DNA of 32,869 nt from Paracoccaceae bacterium (GTDB lineage Bacteria; Pseudomonadota; Alphaproteobacteria; Rhodobacterales; Rhodobacteraceae), in assembly GCA_003550665.1 (NCBI GenBank), contig PUKW01000192.1, forward strand, positions 1 to 32,869, in the 5' to 3' direction. Made by a program: the position numbers and the translations under genes. How positions within the stretch are numbered: the stretch's first letter is position 1; each line of letters starts with the position of its first letter. The notes below the pieces were generated by a model. The model was not told the DNA's origin. It was given only the letters and a program-made list of their open reading frames with translations, and made no database searches. This document shows, piece after piece, positions 4,705 to 21,591 of the stretch.

Positions 4705-6201
4705 CTACAGCGTCTGGTCGTAATCGCCCACCGAAGGCTCCGTTCGGATCACCTTGTCTAGATCGTCGAATATCGCGCGCAACTCCGCCGCGCTGTCGGG
4801 GCTTTCGCACACAACGACCAGGTTTGGCGTGTTCGACGACGCCCGCACCAGCCCCCAGCCGCCATTCTCGAGCATCACCCGCGCGCCGTTCACCGTCACC
4901 ACCTCGGCGATGCGCCGTCCGCCGAGGGTGCCTCCGTCGCGATGCAGAGCCTCGAGCCGCGCGACCAGCCGCCCGAGCACTTCGTATTTCTCGCCATCGG
5001 CGCACCAGGGTGACATCGTGGGCGATGAATACGTGACCGGAAGCGCGCGGCGCAGATCGGACATGCGTTGTGCCGGATTGCGGTCCATCAGCTTGCAAAG
5101 CTCGACCGCCACGCGCAGCCCGCAGTCATAACCTCGCCCGATCGGCGGGGCGAGAAAGTAGTGCCCCGATTTCTCGAAGCCGGCGAGCGCACCGAGTTCA
5201 TGCACGCGCCGCTTCATGTGGCTGTGCCCGGTGCGCCAGTAATCGGCCTTCGCCCCGCCGGCCTGCAACTCCGGGTCAGAGGCGAACAGGCCGGTGGACT
5301 TGACGTCGGCGACGAAGGTCGCGCCGGGATGCAGCTTGATGAGGTCGCGCGCCATGATGACACCGACCTTGTCGGCAAAGATCTCCTCGCCGGTATCATC
5401 CACCACCCCGCAGCGATCGCCGTCGCCATCGAAGCCGAGCGCGAGATCCGCGCCGCTCGCGCGCACCGCATCGGCCATGTCGTGCAGCATTTCCATGGCC
5501 TCGGGATTGGGATTGTAGTTCGGAAAACTGTAATCGAGGCCGGTATGCAGCGGCACGACCTCGACACCGATCCGCTCGAGCAGCGCGGGCGCGAAGCGGC
5601 TTGCCGTGCCATTGCCGGTCGCGCAGACGATCTTGAGCGGGCGCGAGAGGCGGAAATCACCCGCGAGATCATCGAGATAGGCCCCTTCCACGCCGTCGAC
5701 GACTTCCCAGCCGCCGCCGTCGCGCGGCTGGCCCTTGCCGTCGAGCACGATGTCACGCAGCTGCGCCATCTCGTCGGGGCCATGCGTGAGCGGGCGCTGA
5801 AAGCCCATCTTCACGCCCGTCCAGCCATTCGGGTTGTGGCTCGCCGTGACCATCGCCACGGCGGGCGCGTCGAGATGAAACTGCGCGAAATACGCCATCG
5901 GCGAGAGGGCTGGGCCGATATCCTTCACCCGGATCCCGGCCTGAACGAGACCGAGGATGAGCGCCTGCTTGATGGCCAGCGAATAGTCGCGGTAGTCATT
6001 GCCGACCGCGATCACCGGCTCGAGCCCGTGCGCGTGCATCTGCGTGCCGAGGCCGAGGCCAAGCGCGGTCATGCCCGGCAGGTTGATCTCCTCTGGGTAA
6101 CGCCAGCGCGCATCGTATTCGCGAAATCCGCTGGGCGCGATCATCGGCTCGCGCAGGAACTCCCACGTATTGGGTCGCGACTCGGGATGTGGAACGGGCA
6201 T
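4705..6201 (-). CDS. manB: Phosphomannomutase / phosphoglucomutase
   Basis: Alpha-D-phosphohexomutase interconverting hexose 6-phosphate and 1-phosphate, supplying sugar nucleotides for polysaccharide synthesis in the cytoplasm. About 498 residues from the ATG at 6201, chosen because AAGCAGG precedes it; an in-frame ATG at 6234 has no visible binding site and would add 11 residues. All four family signatures are present: active-site serine in TASHNPNGWTG (Ser121), metal loop GFDGDGDRCG (about 257-266), a sugar-specificity loop around EKSGHYF, and the phosphate-binding C-terminal RASSNTPNLVV. The N terminus NTWEFLREPMIAPSGFREYD is the form seen in Rhodobacteraceae. It is the third gene of the kpsT-kpsE operon, which fits a role in capsule precursor supply. 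Substrate preference (mannose or glucose) cannot be told from the sequence. Confidence 0.93.
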   Translation of the reverse strand: MPVPHPESRPNTWEFLREPMIAPSGFREYDARWRYPEEINLPGMTALGLGLGTQMHAHGLEPVIAVGNDYRDYSLAIKQALILGLVQAGIRVKDIGPALSPMAYFAQFHLDAPAVAMVTASHNPNGWTGVKMGFQRPLTHGPDEMAQLRDIVLDGKGQPRDGGGWEVVDGVEGAYLDDLAGDFRLSRPLKIVCATGNGTASRFAPALLERIGVEVVPLHTGLDYSFPNYNPNPEAMEMLHDMADAVRASGADLALGFDGDGDRCGVVDDTGEEIFADKVGVIMARDLIKLHPGATFVADVKSTGLFASDPELQAGGAKADYWRTGHSHMKRRVHELGALAGFEKSGHYFLAPPIGRGYDCGLRVAVELCKLMDRNPAQRMSDLRRALPVTYSSPTMSPWCADGEKYEVLGRLVARLEALHRDGGTLGGRRIAEVVTVNGARVMLENGGWGLVRASSNTPNLVVVCESPDSAAELRAIFDDLDKVIRTEPSVGDYDQTL

Positions 6202-6267
6202 GGCGCAACCTGCTTCAATGGCAATGCCGGTCATAGACCATGCAGCGCGGCGCCACGCAAGCGCCCC

Positions 6268-7827
6268 TCACGACGACACCTGTTCGCGCAGGATCGACGC
6301 CGTCATCGAGACCAGCAGATAGAGCCCGAGCATGATCAGGAACGCGACGAGCGTGTTCTCAAAGGCGCGCGGATGGGTCGGGCTGTCGGGCGCCACGGGG
6401 CTGACACCCATCGACAGGTAGCGCACCTGCCGGTTGGCCTCGATGCGCGCCTGCTCGAGCTGTTCGAGGGATTTGGACATCATCGCCTGGCGGATCTCGA
6501 CATCCGACTCGGCCATGGTGAGCTGGCTGCGAATGCGCGCCAGCGATTGCCGACCCTCCGAGTCCTCGGTCAGTTGCGAGCGCAGATCGCGGACCTCCTC
6601 GCGCAGGTTCTCGATCCGGGCCTCGCGCGGGGCGATGCGGCCCTGGCTCGGGCTTTCATTGGAGCGGATCTCCTGAAGGGCGAGGCGCTCCTCGATCAGC
6701 TGCGACTCGAGCGCGGCGATCTGGTTCGTGAGCAGCTCGACCTCGGTGTCGCCCGACAGGATCTCGAAATCCTCCTGCAGGTCGATGACGCGCGCGCGCG
6801 CCGCCTGCATCGCGGCCTCGGCCTCCTCGAAGCTCTCGCGCGCACCCTCCATCTGATCCTCGCGCAGCCGCTGCGTGAGCTGGTCCACCTGCTCCTCGGC
6901 ATAGGAGACGAGGGCGCGCGAGAACGCCTCGCTGGTTTCGGGGTCGGCCGCGATCACCTTGAGCTGCACGAGCCCCTCTGCCGGATCGAAGCCGATTTGC
7001 ACCTTGCGCTGGTAGAGCGCGTAAGCATCCTCGTTGCTGGCGCCGTCCGAAAGGCGGCGCAGCGGGTCGATGTGACCCTGGCTGTAATGCGCCTTGAAGC
7101 CGTGGTCGTCATCGAGGCGCATCATCGCCTCGCGCGAGCGCAGGTAGCTCTGAACGGTGATCGAGTCCTCGTTGGTGGCCAGCCCCGTGCCCGCGAAGAG
7201 GCTCGCGAAGCCGCCCATCCCGCCCTCCTGCTCGACGCTCTGGATCACGAACTCGGCCTCGGTGGCATAGAGCGGCGTGGCGATGCGATAGTAATAGATC
7301 CCCGCCATCAGGGTGGGCAGCATCACGAACACCATCAGCCGCGCCGCAAGCAGCGCGAGGCGCCGCCGGCGCCTGCGGGCGATGTCGCGCTGAATCTCCA
7401 TGACCTCGCGCGACTCGTGCTCGGGCGGGCTGTATTCCGATGGTGTCCCGGGGCCGCGATAGGCCTGCGGCAGATGCGGCGCATCGTCGTCGTCGCCGGT
7501 CCGGGTGGGTTCGCTTCGGCGATTGCCCGGCAACATCATGCCGAGCACGGAGTCGACGCGGAACGGATCGATGCCGCGTTCGCGCAACAGCCGAACCGCG
7601 TCGTGGTCCGAGCGCGGCGCGAGGCCGTGGCGCGTCGCGTTGCGCCGCGCCGCGCGCAGCTGCCGGCCGCTCAGCCCCTCGCGGCGGATCGCCTCGATCG
7701 CATCCTCGGGATGCGCGAGGGCCTGCGCATCGTCGGCGAGGGCGGCATTTCCGTCGCTCGCCGGGGCGCGGGCCTCGGGGCGGTGCGGCCGGATGTTGTA
7801 TTTGTTAGTGACGAGTTTCGTAGTCAT
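6268..7827 (-). CDS. kpsE: Capsule polysaccharide export inner-membrane protein, KpsE/CtrB type
   Basis: Polysaccharide co-polymerase/export adaptor linking a KpsMT-type ABC exporter to the periplasm and outer-membrane pore. 519 residues. A long cytoplasmic N-terminal part (1-155), ending in a run of six arginines at 151-156, precedes the first membrane segment (about 157-178). Then comes the YYRIATPLYATEAEFVIQS stretch typical of the Wzz/KpsE domain. A large alpha-helical, glutamate/arginine-rich periplasmic coiled coil spans about 300-450, and a second membrane segment near the C terminus (about 491-510) leaves a short tail. Typical KpsE proteins are about 380 residues; the extra length is the N-terminal region. 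The start overlaps the kpsT 3' end by 23 nt and is preceded by AAGCGG, so translation is probably coupled to kpsT. Confidence 0.88.
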   Translation of the reverse strand: MTTKLVTNKYNIRPHRPEARAPASDGNAALADDAQALAHPEDAIEAIRREGLSGRQLRAARRNATRHGLAPRSDHDAVRLLRERGIDPFRVDSVLGMMLPGNRRSEPTRTGDDDDAPHLPQAYRGPGTPSEYSPPEHESREVMEIQRDIARRRRRRLALLAARLMVFVMLPTLMAGIYYYRIATPLYATEAEFVIQSVEQEGGMGGFASLFAGTGLATNEDSITVQSYLRSREAMMRLDDDHGFKAHYSQGHIDPLRRLSDGASNEDAYALYQRKVQIGFDPAEGLVQLKVIAADPETSEAFSRALVSYAEEQVDQLTQRLREDQMEGARESFEEAEAAMQAARARVIDLQEDFEILSGDTEVELLTNQIAALESQLIEERLALQEIRSNESPSQGRIAPREARIENLREEVRDLRSQLTEDSEGRQSLARIRSQLTMAESDVEIRQAMMSKSLEQLEQARIEANRQVRYLSMGVSPVAPDSPTHPRAFENTLVAFLIMLGLYLLVSMTASILREQVSS

Positions 7828-8619: not shown

Positions 8620-10896
8620 TTATTGCGGATAAAGCACGCAGGCGACCTCGTGCCCCTGCCCCACCACGCGGCGGCGCGGCGCCTCCTTCGCGGCAAAGTC
8701 GATGACGATATCGGCCCCGTCCTCGCGCATCGTCGCGGCCTCCCCGAGCGCGGCGTGCCGCGCGGCCATGATCTCGGCGAGCTGTGCCTTCGCCGCTGCC
8801 GCGCCCTTCGGCGCCCCGACGCGCAGCGCGAGCCCCGCGCGCTTCGCGGGCCCGACAGCCTCGCGCGGCTTCTGCGCGAGATCCCAGTCCGCGATCGCGG
8901 CGAGCACGTCGCGCCCCTCCCAGCCGCAATGCACGGTCGCGAGCGGGCAGCGGTTGTGAAAGTTGCAGCCATTGGGCGGATCGATCGGCGAGGGGATCTC
9001 GCCCGCCGACTCCAGCGGCGGCTTCACGACGGCGGGGTCGGGCTCGGGCGACGCGTCGAGCAGGAGCTGCGTATAGGGGTGCTTGCGCTCGGCGATGACG
9101 GTTTCGGTGGGCCCGACCTCGACGATTTCGCCGAGATACATGATCGCGGTTCGGTCGGCGACGTAGCGGATCGTGGGCAGGTCATGGCTGACATAGATGA
9201 AGGAGATGCCCTGCGTATCGCGGTAGCGGCGCATCAGGTTGAGCACCCCGGCGCGGATCGAGACATCGAGCATCGAGACCGGCTCGTCGGCGACGATGAA
9301 GCGCGGCTCGAGCACGATGGCGCGCGCGATGGCGACGCGCTGGCGCTGCCCCCCCGACAGCTCGTGCGGGAAGCGTTCGAGATAGGTCTCGGCCGGCTTG
9401 AGCCCGGCGCTTTCGAGCACCGCGATCACCCGCGCGCGCAGATCGGCGCCCTTGGCGATCGCGTGGATGCGCAGCGGCTCGCCGACGATGGCCTCGATGG
9501 TGAAGCGCGGGTTCAGCGTCTGGTAGGGGTCCTGAAACACCATCTGCGCGCGGCGACGGAACGCCTTGAGCGCCGCGCCGGTCATCCTGGCGATGTCCTC
9601 GCCCTCCGAGAGGATCTGCCCGGAGGTGACCTCCTGCAGCTTGACGAGCATCTCGCCCGTCGTCGTCTTGCCCGAGCCGGACTCCCCCGCCAGCCCCAGG
9701 ATCTCGCCCTCGGCCAGCGTCAGGTCGATCCCGTCCACGGCGCGCACCACCTCGCGCCTGCCCCCGAAGAAGCCGCCGCCGGGATCGAAATGCTTCACGA
9801 GCCCGTCGATGCGCAGCACCTCCCTGGCGTTCGCGGCGCGCGGGCGCGGCGTGGCGTCGGCGAGCTCCTCGCCGAGCCGCTTGCCGACCTCGACCCAGGT
9901 CGCGTTCTTCGCGGCGATGGCGCGGAATTCCTCGACCTTGTCTGGGTAGTGACAGGCGGCAAAGCGCCCCGGCCCCACCCCCGCGAGCGCCGGGTCCTCG
10001 GCGCGGCAGCGATCGGTGGCGAAAGGGCAGCGCTCGGCAAACCGGCAGCCTTTGGGCGGGTCGAGCAGGTCGGGCGGCGTGCCAGGGATCGAGATCAGCT
10101 CGCGCTGCGCGCCCTCGAGCGTGGGAAAGGCGTTGGTCAGCCCCATCGTGTAGGGGTGGAAAGGCGCGCCGAAGACCTCGCGCACCGGCCCCGTCTCCAT
10201 GATCTTGCCGCCATACATCACCGCGACACGGTCGCAGGTCTGCACCACCACCGAGATGTCATGGGTGATGAACAGAAGGCTCATCCCGCGCTCGCGGCGC
10301 AGCCCGCCGAGCTTGGCGAGGATCTGCGCCTGGGTGACCACGTCGAGCGCGGTGGTGGGCTCGTCGGCGATCACCAGCCGCGGCTCGAGCGCCATCGCCA
10401 TCGCGATCACCGCGCGCTGCTTCATGCCGCCCGACATCTCGTGCGGATAGGCGCGCAGCCGCGACGGCTCGATGCCCACGGCGCGAAACAGATCCGCGCC
10501 GCGCGCCCATCCCTCCTTGCGGTCGATGCGGATATGGGCCTGCATCGCCTCGAGGATCTGGTCGCCCACCCGGTAGACCGGGTCGAGCGCGTTCATCGCC
10601 GCCTGGCTGATCCAGGCGATATCGTTCCAGCGCACCTTGCGCATCGCGTCCTCGCCCATCGGGGCGAGATCGGTGCCGGCGAAGTCGATCCGCCCGCGCG
10701 GGATCGTGCCGTTGGGCGGCAACAGCTTGAGCATCGCCTTCGCGGCCGTGGTCTTGCCGCAGCCCGACTCCCCCACGAGCCCTAGCGCCTCGCCCGGCGC
10801 GATGTCGAAATCGATCCCGTCCACGGCCTGCACCGGCCCCGCGCCGGTGCGGTAATGGATCGCGAGATCCTGGACGCTCAGCAGCTTGTCACTCAT
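8620..10896 (-). CDS. Fused dipeptide/oligopeptide ABC transporter ATPase (DppD-DppF)
   Basis: Two complete ABC ATPases in one 758-residue chain, energising peptide import through the DppB/DppC-like pair upstream. The first half has Walker [10 protein letters not shown] (42-50), signature MSGGMKQRA and Walker [13 protein letters not shown]. The second has [28 protein letters not shown] and [12 protein letters not shown]. Each half ends in the Cys-bearing oligopeptide-transporter C-terminal motif ([14 protein letters not shown] ... ACHYPD, and [14 protein letters not shown] ... ACVLYP). In related Dpp ATPases these cysteines are reported to hold an iron-sulfur cluster. In the second copy the last Cys is about 95 residues from the third instead of about 20, because of an Ala/Glu-rich helical insertion. 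The start ATG overlaps the stop of the permease gene in ATGA, so expression is coupled. Confidence 0.94.
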
Positions 10897-12617
10897 TCAC
10901 GGGCCCGCAATCTGGGGTTGGCGATCACTTCGAGCGAGCGCGAGATGAAGAACACCGACATCACGGTGAGCATGATGAACGCCCCCGGCGGCAGGTTCCA
11001 CCACCACGCCGTGCGCCACGCCCCCGACAGCCGCGCATCGTGCAGGATGCCGCCCCAGCTTATGGATTGCGGCGCACCAAGCCCGAGAAACGACAGCGTC
11101 GCCTCCGCGATGATCGCCGCCCCGGTGATGATGGCAAGCTCGAGAAACACCAGCGGCAGAACGTTGGGGAAGATGTGCAGATACATGATCCGCAGATGCG
11201 AGGCCCCCGCCACCCGCGCGGCCTTCACGAAGGGCCGCTCGCGCAGCGACAGCACCTGTGATCGGATCAGCCGCGCCACCGTGCGCCAGGTCAGAAGCGC
11301 GATGGCGAGGATGATGATCAGAAGGCTCGGCCCGAACAAGAGCACGAGGATGAGCGCGAAGGGCTCGGTCGGGATGCCGTAGAGCACGTCCACGGTGCGC
11401 ATCAGCACCGACTCGGTGCGGCCCCGGAAATACCCCGCGATCAGCCCGACATTCGTCCCGATCAGCACCACGAGACCCGCGGCGATGAAGCCCACCATCA
11501 GCGCGATCTGGCTGCCATAGACGTTCTGGCTGTAGAGGTCGCGGCCGATATGGTCGGTGCCGAACCAGTGATCCGCCGAGGGGCGTGCGAGCCGGTCGAC
11601 GAAATTGTCGGAGCCCAGCGCGAGCATCTCGTCGCCGCGCACCAGGATCGCGCGGAAATGGCGCTCGCTCTCGGTCGGTGCTACCTGCCAGTCGCCGCCA
11701 TTCCATTCCAGCACGATCCCGCTGCGCCCGACCGCGATGGCGGTGCCGTCATCGCCGATCCAGCCCGCGCGCATGGCGCGGGTATCGGGGGCCTGGCCGG
11801 ACTCCCAGTCGGCGTCGGGATCATCGCGACGCAGCACTGTGCCGCGCTCGCCGACGACGAGCGCAGCCCCCGACTCCGCGATATAGATATGGTTGAAGTC
11901 GCGCGACGAGGGCAGACGCACCAGCTCGGTGGAGTCGTCCTGCGGGTCGATGCGCACGACGAGCCCGCGCTCGCCCACCGCGAGCAGCGTGCCGTCGTGA
12001 TCGCGCGCCACCGAATTGAGCGGGAAGCCCCGGCCCACAGGACTTTCGATCTGCGTGATCTCGCCGGTCTCGGCATCGAGGCGCCAGATCTGCTCGCCCG
12101 CGCCGGTCATGAAGGCCGTCTGCGCATCGTACCAGGCCACGCCGCGCAGCTCGGCGCCGGGATCGGGCGCGTCGATCGCGGCCCAGTCGCCGCCATTCTG
12201 CAACAGGATCGTGCTCTCGGCCCCCACGATCAGCCCGCGCCCCTCGGGCGAGATGTCGACGCCGTGCAGATCCACCTCCGTCAGCCGCTCCGGCTGCGTC
12301 CAGTCGCCGCCCTCGGGCCGGTGCCAGATCGTGCCGTCGCGCCCCACGATCAGATCGCGCGCGGCATCCGAGGCCGCATCGTTGAGCGCAAGCTCCCCGA
12401 GGCTCGGCCGCAGCGTCCAGCGCGCCTCGCCGCGCTCCAGCACCGAGCCCTCCTCGATCTCGTTGACGCTGTGCGGATCATGCGTGGCCAGAAGCGGCGC
12501 GAAAAGCGCCATCAGGATCACGAGCGAGAGAACCGCAAGGCCGATCATCGCCATGCGGTCCTGCCCCATCAGCCGCAGCGGCTTGGCGGCGGCGCGCAGG
12601 AAGGGTGGCAGCGTCAT
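10893..12617 (-). CDS. DppC-like peptide ABC permease with inserted beta-propeller-like periplasmic domain
   Basis: Inner-membrane permease of a peptide/nickel-type importer, 574 residues against about 300 for the family. Residues 1-57 are a normal DppC N terminus with TM1 (about 23-44). Residues 347-574 are the normal remainder: HWFGTDHIGRDLYSQNVYG, five further membrane segments, and the EAA loop around KAARVAGASHLRIMY that contacts the ATPase. Between them, about residues 58-346 (DNA about 11582-12446) hold six or seven repeats of 40-50 residues of the form V-G-x-x-G-T-[I/V]-x-x-R followed by a G-D-W or D-W turn (e.g. LIVGRDGTIWHRPEGGDW, AIAVGRSGIVLEWNGGDW). They resemble YCF48/BNR-type beta-propeller blades, placed in the first periplasmic loop. 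The frame is continuous, so it is a true fusion. Start at 12617 overlaps the DppB-like stop (ATGA). Confidence 0.9.
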   Translation of the reverse strand: MTLPPFLRAAAKPLRLMGQDRMAMIGLAVLSLVILMALFAPLLATHDPHSVNEIEEGSVLERGEARWTLRPSLGELALNDAASDAARDLIVGRDGTIWHRPEGGDWTQPERLTEVDLHGVDISPEGRGLIVGAESTILLQNGGDWAAIDAPDPGAELRGVAWYDAQTAFMTGAGEQIWRLDAETGEITQIESPVGRGFPLNSVARDHDGTLLAVGERGLVVRIDPQDDSTELVRLPSSRDFNHIYIAESGAALVVGERGTVLRRDDPDADWESGQAPDTRAMRAGWIGDDGTAIAVGRSGIVLEWNGGDWQVAPTESERHFRAILVRGDEMLALGSDNFVDRLARPSADHWFGTDHIGRDLYSQNVYGSQIALMVGFIAAGLVVLIGTNVGLIAGYFRGRTESVLMRTVDVLYGIPTEPFALILVLLFGPSLLIIILAIALLTWRTVARLIRSQVLSLRERPFVKAARVAGASHLRIMYLHIFPNVLPLVFLELAIITGAAIIAEATLSFLGLGAPQSISWGGILHDARLSGAWRTAWWWNLPPGAFIMLTVMSVFFISRSLEVIANPRLRARE

Positions 12618-13591
12618 TGGAAGGTCACCCTCGGATCGAGCGCCGTGTAAAGAATGTCCACCAGCAGGTTGAGCGTGATGATGAAGGCCGCGAGCACCAG
12701 GAAACTCGCCTGCGCCAGCGGAAAGTCCGAGGTGCCGACGGCGCGGAAGATCTCGCGCCCGAGCCCGGGCCACGAAAACACCCCCTCGACGGCGACCTGC
12801 CCGCCCGCGGCGAGCCCGATCGTCACCGCGAGCTGCGTGACCACCGGCAGGAGCGCGTTGCGCGCGGCGTGATTGTAGAGGATGCGCCGCTCGGGCAGCC
12901 CCTTGGCGCGGGCCATCTCGATGAAGTCCTCGCCGTAGACCTCGAGCATGGTGTTGCGCATGATCAGCAGCGGCGAGCCGAGATAGAACAGCGCCACCAC
13001 GAGCGCGGGCAGGATCAGGTGGTGCAGGAAGTCGAGGGTGAAGATCTTGTCGAGAAACCCGTCCGCGTCATAGGGCAGAGTGCGCATCCCCGAGGTCGGA
13101 AACGCCGACAGCCAGACCCCGAGCACGAGGATCACGATCATCCCCGTCCAGAACGGCGGCGCCGAGCGGAACATCAGCCCGAGCGCGATGCCGCCGGTAT
13201 CGGTGCCGGTGCCGCGCTTCCAGGACAGCCACGCCCCCAGCGGCACCCCGATCACATAGGCCAGCACGATCGCCGGGATCATGAGCACCATGGTGTTGGC
13301 GAGCCGCTCCCAAACCACCGACGCCACCGGCGCGCGGTTGGCGAAGGACAGCCCGAAATCGCCCTGCACCGCGTTCCACAGATAGAGCAGGTACTGCCGC
13401 CAGAGCGGATCCTCGAGCCCGAACTGCGCGCGCACCGCGGCGCGCTGCTCGGCGTTGAGCCCCTCGGTGATCAGCGCCGCGGTCGGGTCCGGCAGGCCGA
13501 GACGGAACAGAAAGAACAGGATCGTGGCGATAACCCACAGCGAGAAGATCGCCTGGATCACCCGCCGGATCAGGTAGTTGCGACGGCTCAT
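12614..13591 (-). CDS. DppB-like peptide ABC transporter permease
   Basis: 325-residue inner-membrane permease of the DppB/OppB family, normal length. It has an N-terminal membrane segment (RRVIQAIFSLWVIATILFFL), the family's first periplasmic loop (QFGLEDPLWRQYLLYLWN, then GDFGLSFANRAPV), four or five further membrane segments, and the cytoplasmic coupling loop ARAKGLPERRILYNHAARNA that binds the ATPase. It ends in DILYTALDPRVTF, typical for the family. It pairs with the unusual DppC-like permease, whose start codon overlaps this stop by ATGA. No unusual insertions are visible here, in contrast to its two partner genes. Confidence 0.94.
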   Translation of the reverse strand: MSRRNYLIRRVIQAIFSLWVIATILFFLFRLGLPDPTAALITEGLNAEQRAAVRAQFGLEDPLWRQYLLYLWNAVQGDFGLSFANRAPVASVVWERLANTMVLMIPAIVLAYVIGVPLGAWLSWKRGTGTDTGGIALGLMFRSAPPFWTGMIVILVLGVWLSAFPTSGMRTLPYDADGFLDKIFTLDFLHHLILPALVVALFYLGSPLLIMRNTMLEVYGEDFIEMARAKGLPERRILYNHAARNALLPVVTQLAVTIGLAAGGQVAVEGVFSWPGLGREIFRAVGTSDFPLAQASFLVLAAFIITLNLLVDILYTALDPRVTFQ

Positions 13592-13652: not shown

Positions 13653-15257
13653 TCAGCGGACGAGCATGCCGTCCTCGTCCCAGGAATAACCGGCCTCCTC
13701 GAGCTCGGCGCGCGCCGCCTCCATGTCGAACTCGAAGCGCTCGAGGAAGGGATTGTGCCAGTACTCGTTGACCGGCGCGATCACGCTCGTGCCGACTTCG
13801 CCGCGCCCCTCGAGCAGCACGTTGACCATGCGCTCGCGATCCATCGCCATGGTGAGCGCGCGGCGCATCGCGACGTCGTCGAAGGGCTCGCGACGCAGGT
13901 TGAAGGTGAAGTGGAAGTAGCCGAAATCGGGCACGCTGACGACGGTGAGGTCGTCATTGTCCTCGGCGAGCGGGATCTGGCCGGGCTCCATGCGCCAGGC
14001 GGTCATGTCCACTTCGCCGGTGTCGAGCGCGGTGAACACCCCCTCGGCATCGGCATAGATCAGGAACTCGACGCCATCGACGGCGATCTCGTCGGCCTGG
14101 AAGTGATCCGGGTTGGTGGTGATCGACATGAACTCGCCGCGGTCGTAGCGGTCGAACACGAACGGCCCGGAGCCGACGGTGGGAATGTCGTCGGGCGAGA
14201 GCTCCTGCGGGTCCTCGATATCGGCCCAGACATGCTCGGGCAGGATCGGGATCTGGCTGAGCGTGATCGTCGCGAAGCTCGCCGAGGGCTCCGTCAGGTT
14301 GAAGGTGATCTCGTGATCGCCGGTGACCTCGACGCTGTCCACGGGCTCGAGATAGCTGTCGAAATAGCTGTAGGAGGAGTCCATGTAGTAATCGAAGGTG
14401 AAGGCCACATCCTCGGCGCGCACCGGCTCGCCGTCATGGAAGGTCATGCCCTCGCGCAGCGTCACCACGATGGTGGTGTCGTCCTCGGCGGTCACGTCGG
14501 TCGCGGCCCAGTCCACCGGCTCGACCTCGGGCGACAGGCGTACGAGGCGGTCATAGTAGAGCCGCATCCACTTCCACCCCCACACCGAGGTGGAGTTGAG
14601 CGGGTTGATGTTGTCGGGCTCCTGCGGCCCGCCGATGCGCAGCGTGGTGCGATCGCCGACCGGCTCGGCCTCCATCGCGCCCCACTCCGAGTAGAGCCCC
14701 TCGCCGGCCATCGCGTTCATGTTGGTGAAAGCGGTGTTGTTGTAGGCCACGACCTCGTCGCGGTGAAACAGCACCACGACGGGGACATCGGGCATGTAGA
14801 GCTCCTGCATCTCGTGCACGATGTCGCGCCGTGCCTCGATGTCGAATTCGCGCGCCTGCGCGTCGAAGAGCTCGTCATATTCGGGGTTGTCGTAGCCGCC
14901 CGGATTGTTGGCGCCGGGCTCGGCCTGCCGGCTGTCGAGCGTGCCGAGGAAGAACTGCGGATCGAGCCGGTCGACGCGCCCCGACCAGCCGAGGATGGTG
15001 GCGTCGAAATCCTGCTCGGAGTAGAACCGGTCGAGCAGGGTGGAGAATTCCATCGGCGTGACGGTGACGTCGAGGCCGAGTTCCTCCCAGGCCTCCTGGA
15101 TGATGAAGGCGCCCTCGTAGCGTATCGGGTCATAGGACTCGGTGGTGGTGTAGATCTCGACGGGCGGCACGGGTTCCTGCGCCGCGGCCGCCGCCGGCAG
15201 CACGAGCGCCGCGGCGAACGCGATCGAGGATGTCGTCGTCATTCTGGTCATGGTCAT
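13653..15257 (-). CDS. Peptide ABC transporter substrate-binding protein, apparently circularly permuted
   Basis: Periplasmic binding protein of the SBP_bac_5 (DppA/OppA/NikA) family, 534 residues with a cleavable signal (hydrophobic run ending AAAAAQ at about 27). The canonical N-terminal signature (RIGGPQEPDNINPLNSTSVWG, then REGMTFHDGEPVRAEDVAFTF) begins only at residue 207. The chain then continues through VGSGPFVFDRY (361-371) and NLRREPFDDVAMRRALTMAMDR (453-474) to FDMEAARAELEEAGY, where it stops at 534. The section that normally comes next (EAWEELGLDVTVTPMEFSTLL, GWSGRVDRLDP, NNPGGYDNPEYDELFDAQ, VPVVVLFHRDEVVAYN) is instead at residues 54-173. The order of the two blocks is therefore swapped, as in a circular permutation, with no loss of open frame. 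SD AGGGA lies a few nt before the start. First gene of the importer operon; strongly acidic. Confidence 0.92.
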   Translation of the reverse strand: MTMTRMTTTSSIAFAAALVLPAAAAAQEPVPPVEIYTTTESYDPIRYEGAFIIQEAWEELGLDVTVTPMEFSTLLDRFYSEQDFDATILGWSGRVDRLDPQFFLGTLDSRQAEPGANNPGGYDNPEYDELFDAQAREFDIEARRDIVHEMQELYMPDVPVVVLFHRDEVVAYNNTAFTNMNAMAGEGLYSEWGAMEAEPVGDRTTLRIGGPQEPDNINPLNSTSVWGWKWMRLYYDRLVRLSPEVEPVDWAATDVTAEDDTTIVVTLREGMTFHDGEPVRAEDVAFTFDYYMDSSYSYFDSYLEPVDSVEVTGDHEITFNLTEPSASFATITLSQIPILPEHVWADIEDPQELSPDDIPTVGSGPFVFDRYDRGEFMSITTNPDHFQADEIAVDGVEFLIYADAEGVFTALDTGEVDMTAWRMEPGQIPLAEDNDDLTVVSVPDFGYFHFTFNLRREPFDDVAMRRALTMAMDRERMVNVLLEGRGEVGTSVIAPVNEYWHNPFLERFEFDMEAARAELEEAGYSWDEDGMLVR

Positions 15258-15341
15258 GTCGATCCCTGTTTCTGGCGCGGGTTCGCCCCGCGCGCCGTTG
15301 TCGATCCCTGTTTCTGACGCGGGTTCGCCCCGCGCGCCGTT
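15257..15341 (-). repeat. Tandem 42-bp repeat carrying the binding site and a hairpin in the leader
   Basis: Two tandem copies (15259-15300 and 15301-15341) differ at one base (GGCGCGGG against GACGCGGG). On the minus strand each copy has a GC hairpin (GCGCGGG, 5-nt loop, CCCGCGC), then CAGAAACAGGGATCGAC with the ribosome binding site AGGGA. Only the copy next to the binding-protein start is followed by ATG. The message leader therefore contains a duplicated hairpin-plus-SD unit. Confidence 0.85.
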
Positions 15342-15574
15342 TGGGCGGCGGCCTGCGCCGCCGACGGTGTCCGGCCGCCACGCGGGCGACCGTCCCTTGC
15401 ATTACTGCGCCGCGCGCACCGCCGGGTCAATCGCCAAGTCACCGCCCGTGACGCCGCGTCCGTTTCGGCGACGCGGCCCGCGCGCAGTCCCGTTCTGCTC
15501 CGGGCGCGCGGATCGACCACGACATCACTTGCGCGGATCGACCACGACATCACTTGCGCGGATCGACCACGACA
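15258..15574. other. Repeat-bearing intergenic region upstream of the peptide importer
   Basis: 317 nt between acuI and the binding-protein gene. It holds the 42-bp repeat (15257-15341), the 25-bp repeat (15506-15574), and between them a GC hairpin GGCGGCG/CGCCGCC at about 15345-15365. A TTGACC on the minus strand (15430-15425) could be a -35 element, but no acceptable -10 lies 16-18 bp away. No open frame here looks like a gene. Confidence 0.5.
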
Positions 15575-15598
15575 TCACTTGCGCGGATCGACCACGAC
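15506..15598 (-). repeat. Tandem 25-bp repeat running out of the acuI 3' end
   Basis: GCGCGGATCGACCACGACAT plus CACTT is repeated head to tail at 15506-15530, 15531-15555 and 15556-15580 without a mismatch, and a fourth, partial copy (15581-15598) is the coding end of acuI (codons for VVVDPR). The gene's stop TGA lies in the third unit, so the 3' coding end has been copied three times past its own stop. There are no spacers between copies. Confidence 0.9.
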
Positions 15599-16793: not shown

Positions 16794-16822
16794 TTTACGC
16801 AACTTGGGCGTTTTTGTATACT
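16794..16822 (+). promoter_or_regulatory. Promoter of the tct operon
   Basis: TTTACG (16794-16799, four of six matches to TTGACA) and TATACT (16817-16822, five of six matches to TATAAT) are separated by exactly 17 bp in a locally AT-rich stretch. They lie about 70 nt upstream of the tctC start, which has a perfect AGGAGG 8 nt before the ATG. The -10 element overlaps the first operator-like site. Confidence 0.65.
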
Positions 16823-16854
16823 CCGATCACTCAAATGCGGCACCTTGTATCCAA
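16814..16854 (+). promoter_or_regulatory. Two TTGTATACAA-like operator sites, 31 bp apart
   Basis: TTGTATACTC (16814-16823) and TTGTATCCAA (16845-16854) are close to the palindrome TTGTATACAA, a form typical of operators for FCD-type GntR repressors. Their starts are 31 bp apart, about three helical turns. The first covers the -10 element and the second lies in the transcribed leader, so binding would repress. The GntR/FCD gene of this cluster (21625-22365) is the obvious candidate to bind. Confidence 0.5.
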
Positions 16855-16893
16855 AAGGCGCACGCAGACCGGACTCAACAGGAGGACGACACC

Positions 16894-17856
16894 ATGAACC
16901 GGACCACCACTCGCCTGCTCGCAACCACCGCGATCGCCGCGGGCGCGTCGCTCGGCCTCGCAGTGTCGGCAGCGGCTGATGATTACCCCGACCGCGCCAT
17001 CGAGATGATCGTGCCCTGGGGCAGCGGCGGCGGCAGCGACGTGCTCATGCGCATCGTCGCCAACCACGTCGAGGAATATGTCGGCCAGCCCATGCCCGTG
17101 ATCAACATGCCCGGCGCATCCGGCACGCAGGGCCTCGAAGATGCCCGCGAGCGCGATGCCGACGGCTATACCGTCGCCCAGATCCATGAGGGTCTTCTGG
17201 TGTCCTACCACACCGGGCTGACGGATGTGCACACCTCCGACTTCGAGCCCATCGCGTCCTTCACCTCGTCGCCGCAGTATCTCGTGGTCAATGCGGATGC
17301 GCCCTATGACAGCTTCGAGGAGTTCGTCGAATACGCCCAGGAGAACCCCGGCGAAATCCGCTTCGGCGTCACGCTCGCGGGGGTGCCGCATCTGCATGCC
17401 GCGATGATGGAGGACGCGGCGGATTTCGAAGTCTCCTATGTCGGCCATGAGGGCACCGGCGAGCGCATCCAGGCGCTGGTGGGCGGCCATATCGACGCCG
17501 CCATCGGCGATATCGCCTCCTCGCTCGAATTCGTCGAGAACGGCGATCTGAAATTCCTCGCCACCGGCGCGAGCGAGCGCCTCGACGCGACGCCCGACGT
17601 GCCCACGCTGCAGGAACTCGGCTACGACCTCGAGCTGACGATCAGCCGCGGGCTCTACGCGCCGGCCGGCACCGACGAGGCGATCCTCGACCACCTCTCC
17701 GACGCCTTCGAGCCGATGGCGGAGGACGAGGAATTCATCGAGGCGATCAACAACGCCGGCGGTGAGATGGTTCTTCGCACGCGAGAGGAATACGCCGAAT
17801 ACATGGACGATCTCGATCAGACAGTCGCCGATCTGGCCGAGCATCTCGAGCAATGA
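16894..17856 (+). CDS. tctC: Tripartite tricarboxylate transporter substrate-binding protein (TctC/Bug family)
   Basis: Periplasmic binding protein of a TTT-type secondary transporter, 320 residues from the ATG at 16894, chosen for the perfect AGGAGG 8 nt upstream. A signal peptide (about 1-28, ending SAAADDYPD) is followed by the family N-terminal motif YPDRAIEMIVPWGSGGGSDV and the NMPGASGTQGL stretch of the Bug fold, whose lobes close on carboxylated ligands. The protein is strongly acidic. Ligands of Bug proteins range from citrate to amino acids and other carboxylates and cannot be assigned by eye. The stop overlaps the tctB start in ATGA. First gene of a plus-strand operon tctC-tctB-tctA-GGT-gntR-tauE. 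Confidence 0.93.
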   Translation: MNRTTTRLLATTAIAAGASLGLAVSAAADDYPDRAIEMIVPWGSGGGSDVLMRIVANHVEEYVGQPMPVINMPGASGTQGLEDARERDADGYTVAQIHEGLLVSYHTGLTDVHTSDFEPIASFTSSPQYLVVNADAPYDSFEEFVEYAQENPGEIRFGVTLAGVPHLHAAMMEDAADFEVSYVGHEGTGERIQALVGGHIDAAIGDIASSLEFVENGDLKFLATGASERLDATPDVPTLQELGYDLELTISRGLYAPAGTDEAILDHLSDAFEPMAEDEEFIEAINNAGGEMVLRTREEYAEYMDDLDQTVADLAEHLEQ

Positions 17857-18428
17857 GCGATCCACGCTCCAACAACGCCTCCGGCCGGCCCGACCGGCCG
17901 GAGGACGACGCCGCCCCGCAGCCCGAGGGCATTTCGGGCGACAGCGGGCTGTTGCAGTTCGCGTTCAACCTCGTGATGCTCGCCGGGTTCGGGTATCTCT
18001 TCTGGGAGGCGATGGCGCTGCCCGAGTCGCGCTGGGAGCCGCTCGGCGCGGGCACCTTCCCGCGCGTGCTGCTCGGCGCGCTGATGCTGCTCAACGTGAT
18101 CATGCTGATCCAGTCGGCCCCGCAGGCGCGCGCCGAGCTCGGCCACGGACCAAGGCAGCTTTTCGGCGTGGCCTGGCGCACGATGCTCGAGTTTCGCACG
18201 GTGTTCACGGTGCTCGGCGCATTCGGTGTGTTCCTGATCCTGATCCGTCCGCTCGGCTTCGTGATCGCGGCGTTTCTCTTCGCCTTTGGCGTTCAGCTGC
18301 TGCTCGGGCCGCGCACGTGGCGCAACCTGGTGATCTCGGCGATCATCGCGGCGGTGGCCACGGTCGGGCTGCAGGTCTTCTTCGCAGAAGCGCTCAACGT
18401 CTTTCTGCCGCGCGGGCCGTTTTCCTGA
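17853..18428 (+). CDS. tctB: TTT transporter small membrane subunit TctB
   Basis: 191 residues. A charged N-terminal tail of about 35 residues (rich in D, P and E) precedes four hydrophobic segments typical of TctB: about 35-55 (FAFNLVMLAGFGYLFWEAM), 70-90 (FPRVLLGALMLLNVIMLIQ), 115-145 (FTVLGAFGVFLILIRPLGFVIAAFLFAFG) and 155-175. TctB is the poorly conserved small subunit needed for transport together with TctA. The start codon overlaps the tctC stop by ATGA, which fixes the start and implies translational coupling. The call rests on topology, size and position between tctC and tctA, since TctB proteins have few invariant residues. Confidence 0.88.
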   Translation: MSDPRSNNASGRPDRPEDDAAPQPEGISGDSGLLQFAFNLVMLAGFGYLFWEAMALPESRWEPLGAGTFPRVLLGALMLLNVIMLIQSAPQARAELGHGPRQLFGVAWRTMLEFRTVFTVLGAFGVFLILIRPLGFVIAAFLFAFGVQLLLGPRTWRNLVISAIIAAVATVGLQVFFAEALNVFLPRGPFS

Positions 18429-18465
18429 GCCGCGCGCCGTAACGCAATGACGAGGTGACATCGCG

Positions 18466-19968
18466 ATGCTCGACGGATTCGCCGGCGGTTTCATCGAAAT
18501 CCTTCAGATCGCCACGCTCATGACGATGTTCGTGGGCGTGATCGCGGGGATCGTGGCCTCGGCCATCCCAGGCTTCACGATAACCATGGCGATCGTGCTG
18601 ACCCTGCCGCTGACCTTCTACATGCCGCCCATCCAGGGCATCGCGACGATGCTCGGCGTCTATGTGGGCGGGCTGACCGGCGGCATGATCAGTGCCGCCC
18701 TGCTCGGCATCCCGGGCACGCCTTCGGCGGTGGCGACGACCTTCGATGCCTACCCGATGGCGCGCAAGGGCGATCCGGGGCGCGCGCTCGGCATCGGCAT
18801 CTTCGCCTCCTTCTTCGGCACGCTGGTCTCGATCATCGTGCTCGTGCTCGCCGCCCCGCCGCTCGCCATCGTCGCGATCCAGCTGGGCCCGTGGGAATAC
18901 TTCTCGCTCATCGTCTTCGCGATGACGGTGATCGCGAGCCTCGTGGGCCGCTCGCTCGTGCGCGGGCTCATCGCCGGGCTCATCGGCATCTTCCTCGCCA
19001 CGATCGGGCCCGACCCGATGATGAACAGCCCGCGTTTCACGTTCGATCTGGCAATGCTGTCCTCGGGCCTGCCGTTTCTCGCGGTGCTGATCGGGGTCTA
19101 TGCCGTCAGCCAGCTGCTCGGAGAGGTCGAGCAGATGCGCAGCGGCAGCAGCAAGGGCGAGGCGCTGATCGAGGAGCGCATCGTGTTCAGGCCGCTCTCC
19201 TACCTGATGGACACCATCCGCCGGCCGATCAACCTGATCCGCTCTTCTCTGGTCGGGGTGTTCATCGGCGCGGTGCCCGGGGCAGGCGGCTCGATCGCGA
19301 ACCTGCTCGCCTACGACCAGGCGCGGCGGGCCTCGAAGGACCCTGACAGCTTCGGCACCGGCGTGCCGGAGGGGGTCGTGGCCTCGGAATCGGGCAACTC
19401 CTCGACGGCGGGCGGCGGGCTCATCCCGATGATCGCGCTCGGCATTCCGGGCAGCGCGGTGGATGCGGTGCTGATGGCGTCACTGATGGTGCACGGCATC
19501 GCGGTGGGGCCACGGCTGATGGTGGACAACCCAGAGATCGTCTACTCGATCTTCGTGGGGCTGTTCATCGGCGCCCTCATGATGCTGCTCATCGCGCTGA
19601 GCTCGATGCGGTATTTCCTCATGGTCACGCGGATCCCCAAGCATATCATCGTGCCCATCGTGCTCGTCTTCTGCGCGGTCGGGGTGTTCGCGCTCAACAA
19701 CCGCGTCACCGACATCTATCTGCTTTTCTTCGTGGGTGCTCTCGGATACGTGATGAAGAAGATGGACTACCCGCTCGCGCCACTGGTGCTCGGTGTCATC
19801 CTCGGGCCGATCGCGGAGACCAATCTGCGCCGCGCCCTGTCGACGAGCGAGGATCTCACGCTGTTCATCACCCGCCCGGTTTCGGCGGTGCTTCTGGGCC
19901 TTGCGGTGATCTCGCTCGTGGTGTTCCTGCGCCACCGGATGCGCCCACGTGCGAGTGCCGATTCCTGA
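18466..19968 (+). CDS. tctA: TTT transporter large membrane subunit TctA
   Basis: 500-residue polytopic protein with about 11-12 membrane segments, normal TctA length. Both halves carry the family's Gly/Pro-rich re-entrant motifs: GGLTGGMISAALLGIPGTPS with ATTFDAYPMARKGDPGRALG in the first, and GAVPGAGGSIANLLAYDQAR followed by FGTGVPEGVVASESGNS and IALGIPGSAVDAVL in the second. These form the ion and substrate pathway of this secondary transporter, driven by proton or sodium gradient. A GAGGTGA-type site lies before the start at 18466, 37 nt after tctB. With TctB and TctC it forms a complete tripartite importer. Confidence 0.95.
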   Translation: MLDGFAGGFIEILQIATLMTMFVGVIAGIVASAIPGFTITMAIVLTLPLTFYMPPIQGIATMLGVYVGGLTGGMISAALLGIPGTPSAVATTFDAYPMARKGDPGRALGIGIFASFFGTLVSIIVLVLAAPPLAIVAIQLGPWEYFSLIVFAMTVIASLVGRSLVRGLIAGLIGIFLATIGPDPMMNSPRFTFDLAMLSSGLPFLAVLIGVYAVSQLLGEVEQMRSGSSKGEALIEERIVFRPLSYLMDTIRRPINLIRSSLVGVFIGAVPGAGGSIANLLAYDQARRASKDPDSFGTGVPEGVVASESGNSSTAGGGLIPMIALGIPGSAVDAVLMASLMVHGIAVGPRLMVDNPEIVYSIFVGLFIGALMMLLIALSSMRYFLMVTRIPKHIIVPIVLVFCAVGVFALNNRVTDIYLLFFVGALGYVMKKMDYPLAPLVLGVILGPIAETNLRRALSTSEDLTLFITRPVSAVLLGLAVISLVVFLRHRMRPRASADS

Positions 19969-19998
19969 CAACGCAACTTTCTCGAGGATACCGCCGGT

Positions 19999-21591
19999 AT
20001 GGATTTCGACTTCGCCACCCCCTACCCGTCCCAGCGCAGCCCCGTCATGGGCCGCAACATGGTCGCCACCTCGCAGCCGCTCGCCGCGCAGGCGGGGATG
20101 CGCATGCTCGACCGGGGCGGCAACGCCGTCGACGCCGCGCTCGCCGCGGCGATCGCGATGCCCGTGCTCGAGCCGACCGGCAACGGCCTGGGCAGCGACG
20201 CCTTCGCGATCGTGCATGACGGCACGGAGCTGCACGGGCTCAACGCTTCGGGCCGCGCGCCGGCGGGCTGGACGCCGGAGCGTTTCGCCGGCCGGGACGC
20301 GATGCCCGAACGCGGCTGGGAGACGGTGACGACGCCGGGCGCGGTGTCGGCCTGGCTCGCGCTGTCGGAACGGTTCGGCGCCCTGCCCTTCGAGGCGCTT
20401 TTCGAGCCGGCCATCGACTATGCCGAGCGCGGCTACGCGGTCTCGCCGATCATCGCCAGCGCCTGGGCCGCCGGGGCCGAGGTGCTCTGCGCGCAGCCGG
20501 GCTTCGCCGAAACCTTCATGCCCGAGGGCCGCGCGCCGCGCGCGGGCGAGATCTTTCGCGCCCCGGCCATGGCGCGCACCCTGCACCGCATCGCCGAGAC
20601 CCGCACCGAGGCCTTCTATCGCGGCGAGATCGCCGAGGCGATCGCGGCGTTCGCCCGCAAGCACGATGCCGCGCTCAGCGAGGAGGATCTCGCCGCCCAC
20701 CGCGCCGACTGGTGCGGCACCATCCAGCGCCGCTACGGCGACATCGACGCGCACGAGATCCCGCCCAACGGCCAGGGCATCGCCGCGCTGATCGCGCTCG
20801 GCATCCTCGAGAACACCGAAATCGCCGATCTCGGCCCCGACAGCGTCGCGGGGCTGCACCTGCAGATCGAGGCGATGAAGCTCGCCCTCGCCGACACCTA
20901 CGCCCATGTCGGCGACCCCGAGGCGATGGTCGTCGATCCCGCCGCCCTCCTGGATGACGGCTATCTGCGCGACCGCGCCAAGCTCATCGACCGCGACCGC
21001 GCCGGCGATCCGCAGCACGGCCTGCCGGGACCGTCTGGGACGATCTACATCACGGCCGCGGATGCCGAGGGGCGGATGATTTCCTTTATCCAGTCTAACT
21101 ACGCCGGTTTCGGCTCCGGCGTGGTAGTCCCCGAGGTCGGCGTGAGCCTGCAGAACCGTGGCGCGGACTTCAGCCTCGACCCGGCGAGCCCGAATGTCGT
21201 CGGCCCGCGCAAGCGTCCCTTCCACACCATCATCCCCGGCTTCATCACCAGGGGCGGCGCCCCGCTGACGAGCTACGGCGTGATGGGCGGGCCGATCCAG
21301 GCGCAGGGTCATGTGCAGATGATCCTTCGCATGATGAACTTCGCCCAGACCCCGCAGGCGGCGAGCGATGCGCCCCGCTGGCGGGTGCTCAGCGGCCGGC
21401 GCGTCGCAATGGAGGCGGCCTTTCCCGCCGGGACGTTCGAGGGGCTCGCGGCGCTCGGCCACGAGATCGCCCGCGGCCAGCTCGAGGCCGATTTCAGCTT
21501 CGGCGGCGCCCAGCTCATCCACCGGATGGAAAACGGCGTCTATATCGGCGGCTCGGACCATCGCAAGGACGGCCACGCCGTCGCGTTCTGA
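19999..21591 (+). CDS. Gamma-glutamyltransferase family hydrolase, cytosolic (YwrD-like)
   Basis: Ntn-hydrolase of the gamma-glutamyltranspeptidase family, 530 residues. The N terminus (MDFDFATPYPSQRSPVMGRN) has no signal peptide, unlike classical periplasmic GGT, so the enzyme should act in the cytoplasm. Family features: GGNAVDAALAAAIAMPVLEP near 37-56, SGRAPAGWTPE, VTTPGAVSAWLALSERFG, the autocleavage point before Thr348 in PSGTIYITAADAEG, then SFIQSNYAGFGSGVVVPEVG, NRGADFSLDP, and the C-terminal GGPIQAQGHVQMILRMMNF. Self-cleavage at Thr348 would give chains of about 347 and 183 residues. Its position after tctCBA suggests that it cleaves the imported compound, perhaps a gamma-glutamyl or other acyl amide. 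Whether it acts on glutathione is not decidable. It starts 31 nt after tctA. Confidence 0.9.
   Translation: MDFDFATPYPSQRSPVMGRNMVATSQPLAAQAGMRMLDRGGNAVDAALAAAIAMPVLEPTGNGLGSDAFAIVHDGTELHGLNASGRAPAGWTPERFAGRDAMPERGWETVTTPGAVSAWLALSERFGALPFEALFEPAIDYAERGYAVSPIIASAWAAGAEVLCAQPGFAETFMPEGRAPRAGEIFRAPAMARTLHRIAETRTEAFYRGEIAEAIAAFARKHDAALSEEDLAAHRADWCGTIQRRYGDIDAHEIPPNGQGIAALIALGILENTEIADLGPDSVAGLHLQIEAMKLALADTYAHVGDPEAMVVDPAALLDDGYLRDRAKLIDRDRAGDPQHGLPGPSGTIYITAADAEGRMISFIQSNYAGFGSGVVVPEVGVSLQNRGADFSLDPASPNVVGPRKRPFHTIIPGFITRGGAPLTSYGVMGGPIQAQGHVQMILRMMNFAQTPQAASDAPRWRVLSGRRVAMEAAFPAGTFEGLAALGHEIARGQLEADFSFGGAQLIHRMENGVYIGGSDHRKDGHAVAF

Follow-up and report, generated by a model that had tools for sequence, protein, structure and literature searches.

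The window analysed here, a stretch of 32,869 nucleotides from a Paracoccaceae bacterium, encodes a family-5 solute-binding protein whose two main parts stand in the reverse of the usual order. The question that this locus raises is whether the order reflects a true circular permutation and, if so, whether it is a peculiarity of one genome or the mark of a transporter lineage with its own permeases and substrate.

Block order of the binding protein

In the 534-residue protein, one signal peptide is followed by the block that is C-terminal in ordinary family members (residues 33-178), which stands ahead of the block that is N-terminal in them (residues 205-534; Table 1). An earlier note on this DNA had given the open reading frame, its coordinates and its motifs correctly, and the swapped block order that it claimed was recovered with Pfam, PDB sequences, block HMMs and structure comparison. 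Specifically, PF00496 (SBP_bac_5) matched the protein in two stretches, the better of which aligned residues 246-530 with positions 1-284 of the 368-position profile, and the protein passed the curated cut-off of that family (257.7 bits vs 32.4). The departure from the canonical collinear order was evident in solved members, where the match to residues 40-165 lies behind the match to residues 206-531. The note had proposed aligning the two blocks separately with family members and PF00496, and these alignments revealed the swap in two solved chains: in AppA (1xoc), residues 206-531 corresponded to chain positions 24-352 (E 4e-33) and residues 40-165 to positions 367-488 (E 7e-4), while in the DppA-type chain 4qfk residues 234-526 corresponded to 60-370 and residues 40-165 to 383-505 (E 2e-7). 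Given that the blocks are non-collinear with ordinary members by Pfam, by AppA and 4qfk, and by block HMMs, the note's reading of a circular permutation stands.

The block HMMs, built from the near clade (the permuted proteins closest to that of the window) and run on stop-to-stop open reading frames of at least 300 aa in the collected loci, assigned 96 proteins as permuted, 26 as canonical and 14 as having the N block only, with none mixed (duplicate loci included). Among the controls, E. coli DppA and OppA were classed as canonical and NikA as N block only. For the best 60 of 104 PDB relatives retrieved with phmmer, no best stretch crossed the query in permuted order. Further, the protein fell below the NCBIfam equivalog cut-off for DppA (83.6 bits vs 1005), and the family, sequence and fold matches listed for it all belonged to family 5, with no cluster B protein among those listed.

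An AF2 model of the binding protein, computed from a 27-row alignment that included the window, had a mean pLDDT of 83.0 and a pTM of 0.80. Residues 196-534 of the model superposed on AppA 18-355 (Z 23.7, rmsd 4.6, 328 residues aligned). The VIA-align rows spanned only residues ~178-534, and the 50 listed had their first aligned residue in the range 178-205, which is what a sequential aligner should give for a permuted protein. On sequence homology, the front block is predicted to occupy the place of the canonical C-terminal segment.

Table 1. Features of the binding-protein operon in the window, with residue numbers of the respective protein.
Feature	Position	Strand	Basis
Circularly permuted family-5 solute-binding protein, 534 aa	13653..15257	-	Pfam, PDB sequences, AF2 model, block HMMs
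Signal peptide, ~residues 1-26, looks Sec type, without lipobox	15180..15257	-	Sequence; pLDDT <50 at residues 1-25; lipobox pattern scan
Ancestral C-terminal block, residues 33-178	14724..15161	-	Residues 40-165 match AppA 367-488; own HMM
E40, aligned to DppA R383 (carboxylate anchor of the dipeptide)	15138..15140	-	Alignment
R94-x-x-R97 loop, with R94 aligned to DppA D436 (amine anchor of the dipeptide) and R97 within an insertion	14967..14978	-	Alignment
Linker between the former C and N termini, ~residues 193-204	14646..14681	-	Alignment with canonical proteins
Ancestral N-terminal block, residues 205-534	13656..14645	-	Residues 206-531 match AppA 24-352; structure 18-355
OppB-type permease, 325 aa, of the lineage that accompanies permuted binding proteins	12614..13591	-	PF00528, PF19300; trees
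OppC-type permease, 574 aa; start overlaps oppB end	10893..12617	-	Pfam, locus comparison
Beta-propeller in OppC after TM1, predicted 7-bladed, presumably periplasmic	11571..12479	-	AF2 pLDDT 93.2; Foldseek
Fused OppD-OppF ATPase, 758 aa	8620..10896	-	Two ABC_tran and two oligo_HPY stretches

Spread and descent of the permuted form

A pattern-based scan, limited to one genome per species, yielded 64 homologous loci in other genomes (57-93% identity), and the block HMMs found the permuted order in all 64, including one (L040) in a complete chromosome; four (L064, L065, L077 and L080) are incomplete at one protein end. Among these near loci are representatives of Rhodobacteraceae, Phyllobacteriaceae, Halomonadaceae, Natronospirillum, Saccharospirillum, spirochaetes, Trueperaceae, Halanaerobiales and Nitriliruptoraceae (Actinomycetota). 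Many of the genomes are metagenome-assembled, and many of the loci bear record codes such as CSSed, which we take to denote soda-lake metagenomes. More distant permuted relatives (~28-37% identity) occur in other Alphaproteobacteria, in Actinomycetota and on haloarchaeal plasmids. Sampling of genomes shows that the form is broad but sparse. Matches at E <= 1e-50 were present in 10 of 289 alphaproteobacterial genomes (own genome included). The Halomonas class (229 genomes) and the spirochaete phylum (149 genomes) each gave a single match, the centre genome itself. In the actinobacterial phylum, 17 of 246 genomes matched at E <= 1e-36, only three of which (the centre included) had an end-to-end, permuted protein. 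Among plasmids, 28 records matched at E <= 1e-40, 27 of them with 80% or more of the query covered in a single place; by organism name, 14 are alphaproteobacterial and 14 haloarchaeal.

For the binding protein and for OppB, the trees agreed on a division between permuted and canonical systems. In an N-block tree of 82 rows (45 permuted and 37 canonical; 20 representatives stood in for the 64 near loci), the permuted proteins lay on one side of a branch supported at 94/91 and by 92% of 200 bootstraps. Their neighbours were two long-branched canonical rows from the window's own genome (91/62, weak) and then actinobacterial rows; support was moderate and the branches at the base were long. A first C-block tree of 69 rows required two changes for the permuted set, because two haloarchaeal permuted rows grouped there with two canonical rows in which no C block was detected and the segment had been excised by position alone. 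With 62 rows in which the C block was detected, the permuted proteins formed one clade (98/96, 100% of bootstraps). A tree of both blocks for the same 62 rows gave the permuted clade an SH-aLRT of 98, and its earlier 69-row version 99. Of the original 82 rows, 13 were dropped from the 69-row trees and 20 from the 62-row trees, with the permuted L158 and L160 out of both.

The permease tells the same story. An OppB tree of 58 rows recovered the same permuted/canonical split at 100/100, and a 57-row tree, to which the nearest canonical permeases found were added and from which five long-branched rows were left out, recovered it at 100/99 and in 99% of bootstraps; in both, the nearest canonical permeases were actinobacterial. 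A clean split in permease HMM scores was considered as a decisive marker and failed with nearer canonical operons, where L197 (286) outscored the permuted L160 (262). Since the OppB split is that of the binding protein, the two appear to share descent, and either block places the permuted proteins in a single clade, so that a transporter lineage probably began with one ancient permutation.

Three other explanations of the swapped order were weighed against this. The source assembly is fragmented (371 contigs), which would suit an assembly join, a frameshift or a rearranged pseudogene confined to the source genome, and the earlier note had itself named a frameshift or a join of two partial genes as what would undo its reading. 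The reading frame of the 13653-15257 gene is intact, and the search for homologues of the same order that the note had proposed found the permuted order at every one of the 64 loci from independent genomes, one on a complete chromosome, so that an artefact is ruled out for practical purposes and deserves almost no weight. That the permutation arose more than once might be argued from the sub-maximal support and long basal branches of the N-block tree and from the two changes in the first C-block tree; this is highly improbable, given that the break point is identical by block HMMs, that an R-x-x-R insertion is common to most permuted rows, and that the corrected C-block tree and both OppB trees support the single division. 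Alternatively, the protein could be a chimera that combines pieces of two different binding-protein genes and not one ancestral protein in permuted order; such a chimera would look alike and still bind. Duplication and fusion is the likely route in any case, and the blocks could have come from two paralogues; nevertheless, either block alone places the permuted proteins in one clade and no open reading frame with a doubled block was seen, and we regard a chimera as unlikely, if less so than repeated origins.

We therefore return to a single ancient permutation, for which the following history can be proposed. In one event, the chain of a DppA-like protein would have been opened after the helix that ends in 'EEAGY' and ahead of the following strand, probably by tandem duplication, fusion and trimming, with a short linker joining the old termini. 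The mature chain would keep its usual two-lobed shape, with its free ends elsewhere on the surface, probably on the other lobe, so that a membrane tether or signal peptide would emerge there. The signal peptide of the window protein is presumably cleaved at about residue 26. A lipobox was found by pattern in 7 of 7 haloarchaeal and 3 of 3 actinobacterial permuted proteins scanned, and in neither the window protein nor the other proteobacterial rows scanned. The Tp0684 paper raises the idea that permutation may suit tethered proteins (PMC4990184), and a tethered ancestor of the permuted proteins is possible.

Permeases, ligand site and predicted working of the transporter

The binding protein's operon holds the gene set of an Opp/Dpp-type importer, namely two permeases and two ATPase domains, and the order SBP, OppB, OppC, fused OppD-OppF is conserved in the near clade. 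Near-clade OppC has ~300 extra residues after TM1, predicted to form a beta-propeller, for which Foldseek returned a designed 7-bladed propeller as the best match, with YCF48 just after. Against PF14870, the insert of L071 scored above the cut-off and those of L066 and L074 slightly under it, and the window's own insert reached no Pfam cut-off. By analogy with DppC topology, the propeller would lie on the periplasmic side. Every near locus whose OppC is complete (48 of 48, spread across phyla) has it; in the remaining 16 of the 64, OppC is cut by a contig end (five) or absent from the contig (eleven). Among the 22 distant permuted rows, none of the 20 readable OppC proteins has it (in L171 the permease lies ~7 kb off, and in L157 its reading frame is split), which rules out the propeller as a prerequisite of the permutation.

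Propeller profile matches occurred in 37 of 289 alphaproteobacterial genomes. In 30 of these, one match each was read, and the only propeller-matching reading frame with a permease domain was the window's own. None of 14 longer propeller reading frames (6 repeats) had a permease domain, and the matches in the other seven genomes were reading frames of 300-392 aa, too short for propeller plus permease. Among 246 Actinomycetota genomes (at most five candidates per genome scored), full-length OppC matches were confined to the two with near-clade permuted proteins. Thus, among the matches read in these genomes, no propeller-bearing OppC was found next to a canonical binding protein.

Around the operon, a 42-bp tandem duplication (15257-15341; 2.0 copies, 97% match) abuts the start of the binding-protein gene, and a second tandem array (25 bp x 3.7) lies at 15506-15598. 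Downstream of the operon, 4705-7827 (-) encodes phosphoglucomutase/phosphomannomutase-type and BexC/CtrB/KpsE-type polysaccharide export proteins. By Pfam, 16804-21591 (+) holds genes for a gamma-glutamyltranspeptidase and for the TctC and TctA components of a tripartite tricarboxylate transporter. The same genome has a canonical-order family-5 protein (L015; L189 6534-9212) in an 893-codon frame with an unusually long front part.

The ligand site bears on what is transported. In DppA, R383 holds the carboxyl end of the dipeptide and D436 its amino end, and the R383D+D436R protein bound neither of the two dipeptides tested (PMC12136057). The window protein lacks this Arg and Asp and has E40 and R94 instead. 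R94 is found in 66 of 67 near, 13 of 22 distant and 4 of 37 canonical rows, and R97 in 66 of 67, 18 of 22 and 0 of 37, respectively; E40 is present in 63 of 67 near but 2 of 22 distant rows and is almost restricted to the near clade, and the distant L158 keeps the DppA-like Asp. With Glu and Arg at the Arg and Asp sites of DppA, the substrate is probably something other than an ordinary dipeptide. On the alignment, DppA-style binding of an ordinary dipeptide by the window protein is unlikely, and the label 'peptide-binding' in the earlier note is doubtful because the residues that grip the dipeptide ends are charge-reversed.

The reversal may extend to the permease. In the docked E. coli complex, R383 and D436 pair with E41 and R42 of the DppB scoop loop, and dipeptide import persists in an E41A+R42A scoop mutant (PMC12136057). 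At the near-clade OppB scoop tip, 63 of 63 rows have an acidic residue and a Gly replacing R42, and the acidic residue would fit a swapped salt bridge in that clade. Covariation of the scoop loop fails in the distant clade, where 13 of 20 OppB rows have Pro in the acidic column and the rows mostly lack the Arg.

As a guess, candidate substrates are N-blocked or acidic amino-acid derivatives. A gene for an M20, M24, M28 or M81 peptidase lies near 7 of 10 annotated distant plasmid loci, and beside some of these loci there are hydantoinase/oxoprolinase, D-aminoacylase, dipeptide epimerase, creatininase-family and gamma-glutamylcyclotransferase genes; one annotated locus has none of these peptidase or amino-acid-derivative genes. 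The distant neighbours suggest amino-acid derivatives, a suggestion that it would be unsafe to carry over to the near clade. There, the flanking genes differ from locus to locus (catalase, FtsH and DHPS, shikimate dehydrogenase, one M20 peptidase), and no substrate pattern emerged among the 18 neighbour proteins scanned. In Vreelandella olivaria (L046 3747-13591), the operon sits between ftsH-type and dihydropteroate-synthase genes, as if inserted into a housekeeping cluster.

Among the proteins scanned, no catabolic gene is conserved next to the near-clade operon, which could instead favour a sensor or chaperone that has retained its operon context without serving transport, and beta-propellers often mediate protein contacts. 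Nonetheless, cognate permeases and ATPase are kept in the same order and OppB co-descends, which renders such a role very unlikely. From its gene content, the window operon is most likely a working ABC importer for something besides ordinary dipeptides. In such an importer, the exported binding protein would capture its solute and dock on the cognate OppB/OppC, with import powered by the OppD-OppF ATPase. Binding protein and permease appear to have evolved as a single transporter lineage, and one branch, which includes the window, would later have gained the OppC propeller, perhaps as a periplasmic docking or gating platform, and the fused ATPase. We hold this joint reading (an ancient permutation, a cluster C ABC importer, a co-descended permease, a non-dipeptide substrate and a later propeller and fused ATPase) with considerable confidence. 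A bolder version, in which the permutation gave rise to a distinct class of ABC importer that has spread among bacteria and haloarchaea, and whose binding protein is presented from the other lobe, grips N-blocked or acidic substrates through reversed charges and, in the halophile branch, docks on the periplasmic propeller of OppC and meets a charge-reversed OppB scoop, is speculative and, in our view, rather doubtful.

With a permutation that is widespread, apparently of single origin and inherited with its permease, one can test directly whether docking and export depend on chain topology and on the place of the tether, and the propeller-bearing OppC is a second oddity of the same transporter. 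The annotated plasmid records examined name the permuted proteins simply 'ABC transporter substrate-binding protein', a label that hides the permutation, so that substrates may be mispredicted as peptides.

Comparison with known systems

With cluster C/family 5 (DppA, OppA, AppA, NikA; PF00496), the window lineage shares homology of both blocks, the two-lobed fold by model and the operon type (B, C, D/F), and it differs in its swapped blocks, its R-x-x-R loop, its own permease lineage and, in the near clade, the charge reversal at the ligand residues of DppA. E. coli DppABCDF has the same subunit types and a scoop region in the B subunit, and the cysteines at 284, 290, 297 and 315 in the first half of the window's fused ATPase fall at the residue numbers of the DppD iron-sulphur site (PMC12136057). 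The E. coli system differs in that DppC is of ordinary length (~300 aa), DppD and DppF are separate and DppA is canonical (PMC12136057), and the E41/R42 scoop pair of DppB is absent from the near clade.

YCF48/PSII_BNR beta-propellers resemble the OppC insert in fold, and in this comparison only the present case lies inside a permease subunit. Searches of the open-licence PMC literature listed neither a family-5 protein with permuted blocks nor an OppC that carries a propeller. To our knowledge, few transporter binding proteins with a natural circular permutation have been described. A precedent is Tp0684/TpMglB-2 ('Type Ic / Cluster Bc'), an ABC-type ligand-binding protein that likewise arose by natural circular permutation and has homologues in other bacteria (PMC4990184). 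It differs from the present protein in its Type I/cluster B fold, its glucose ligand, its break point and its permuted N lobe (PMC4990184). Permutation of ABC-type ligand-binding proteins is thus already known in cluster B, and the family-5 case described here is a further variant.
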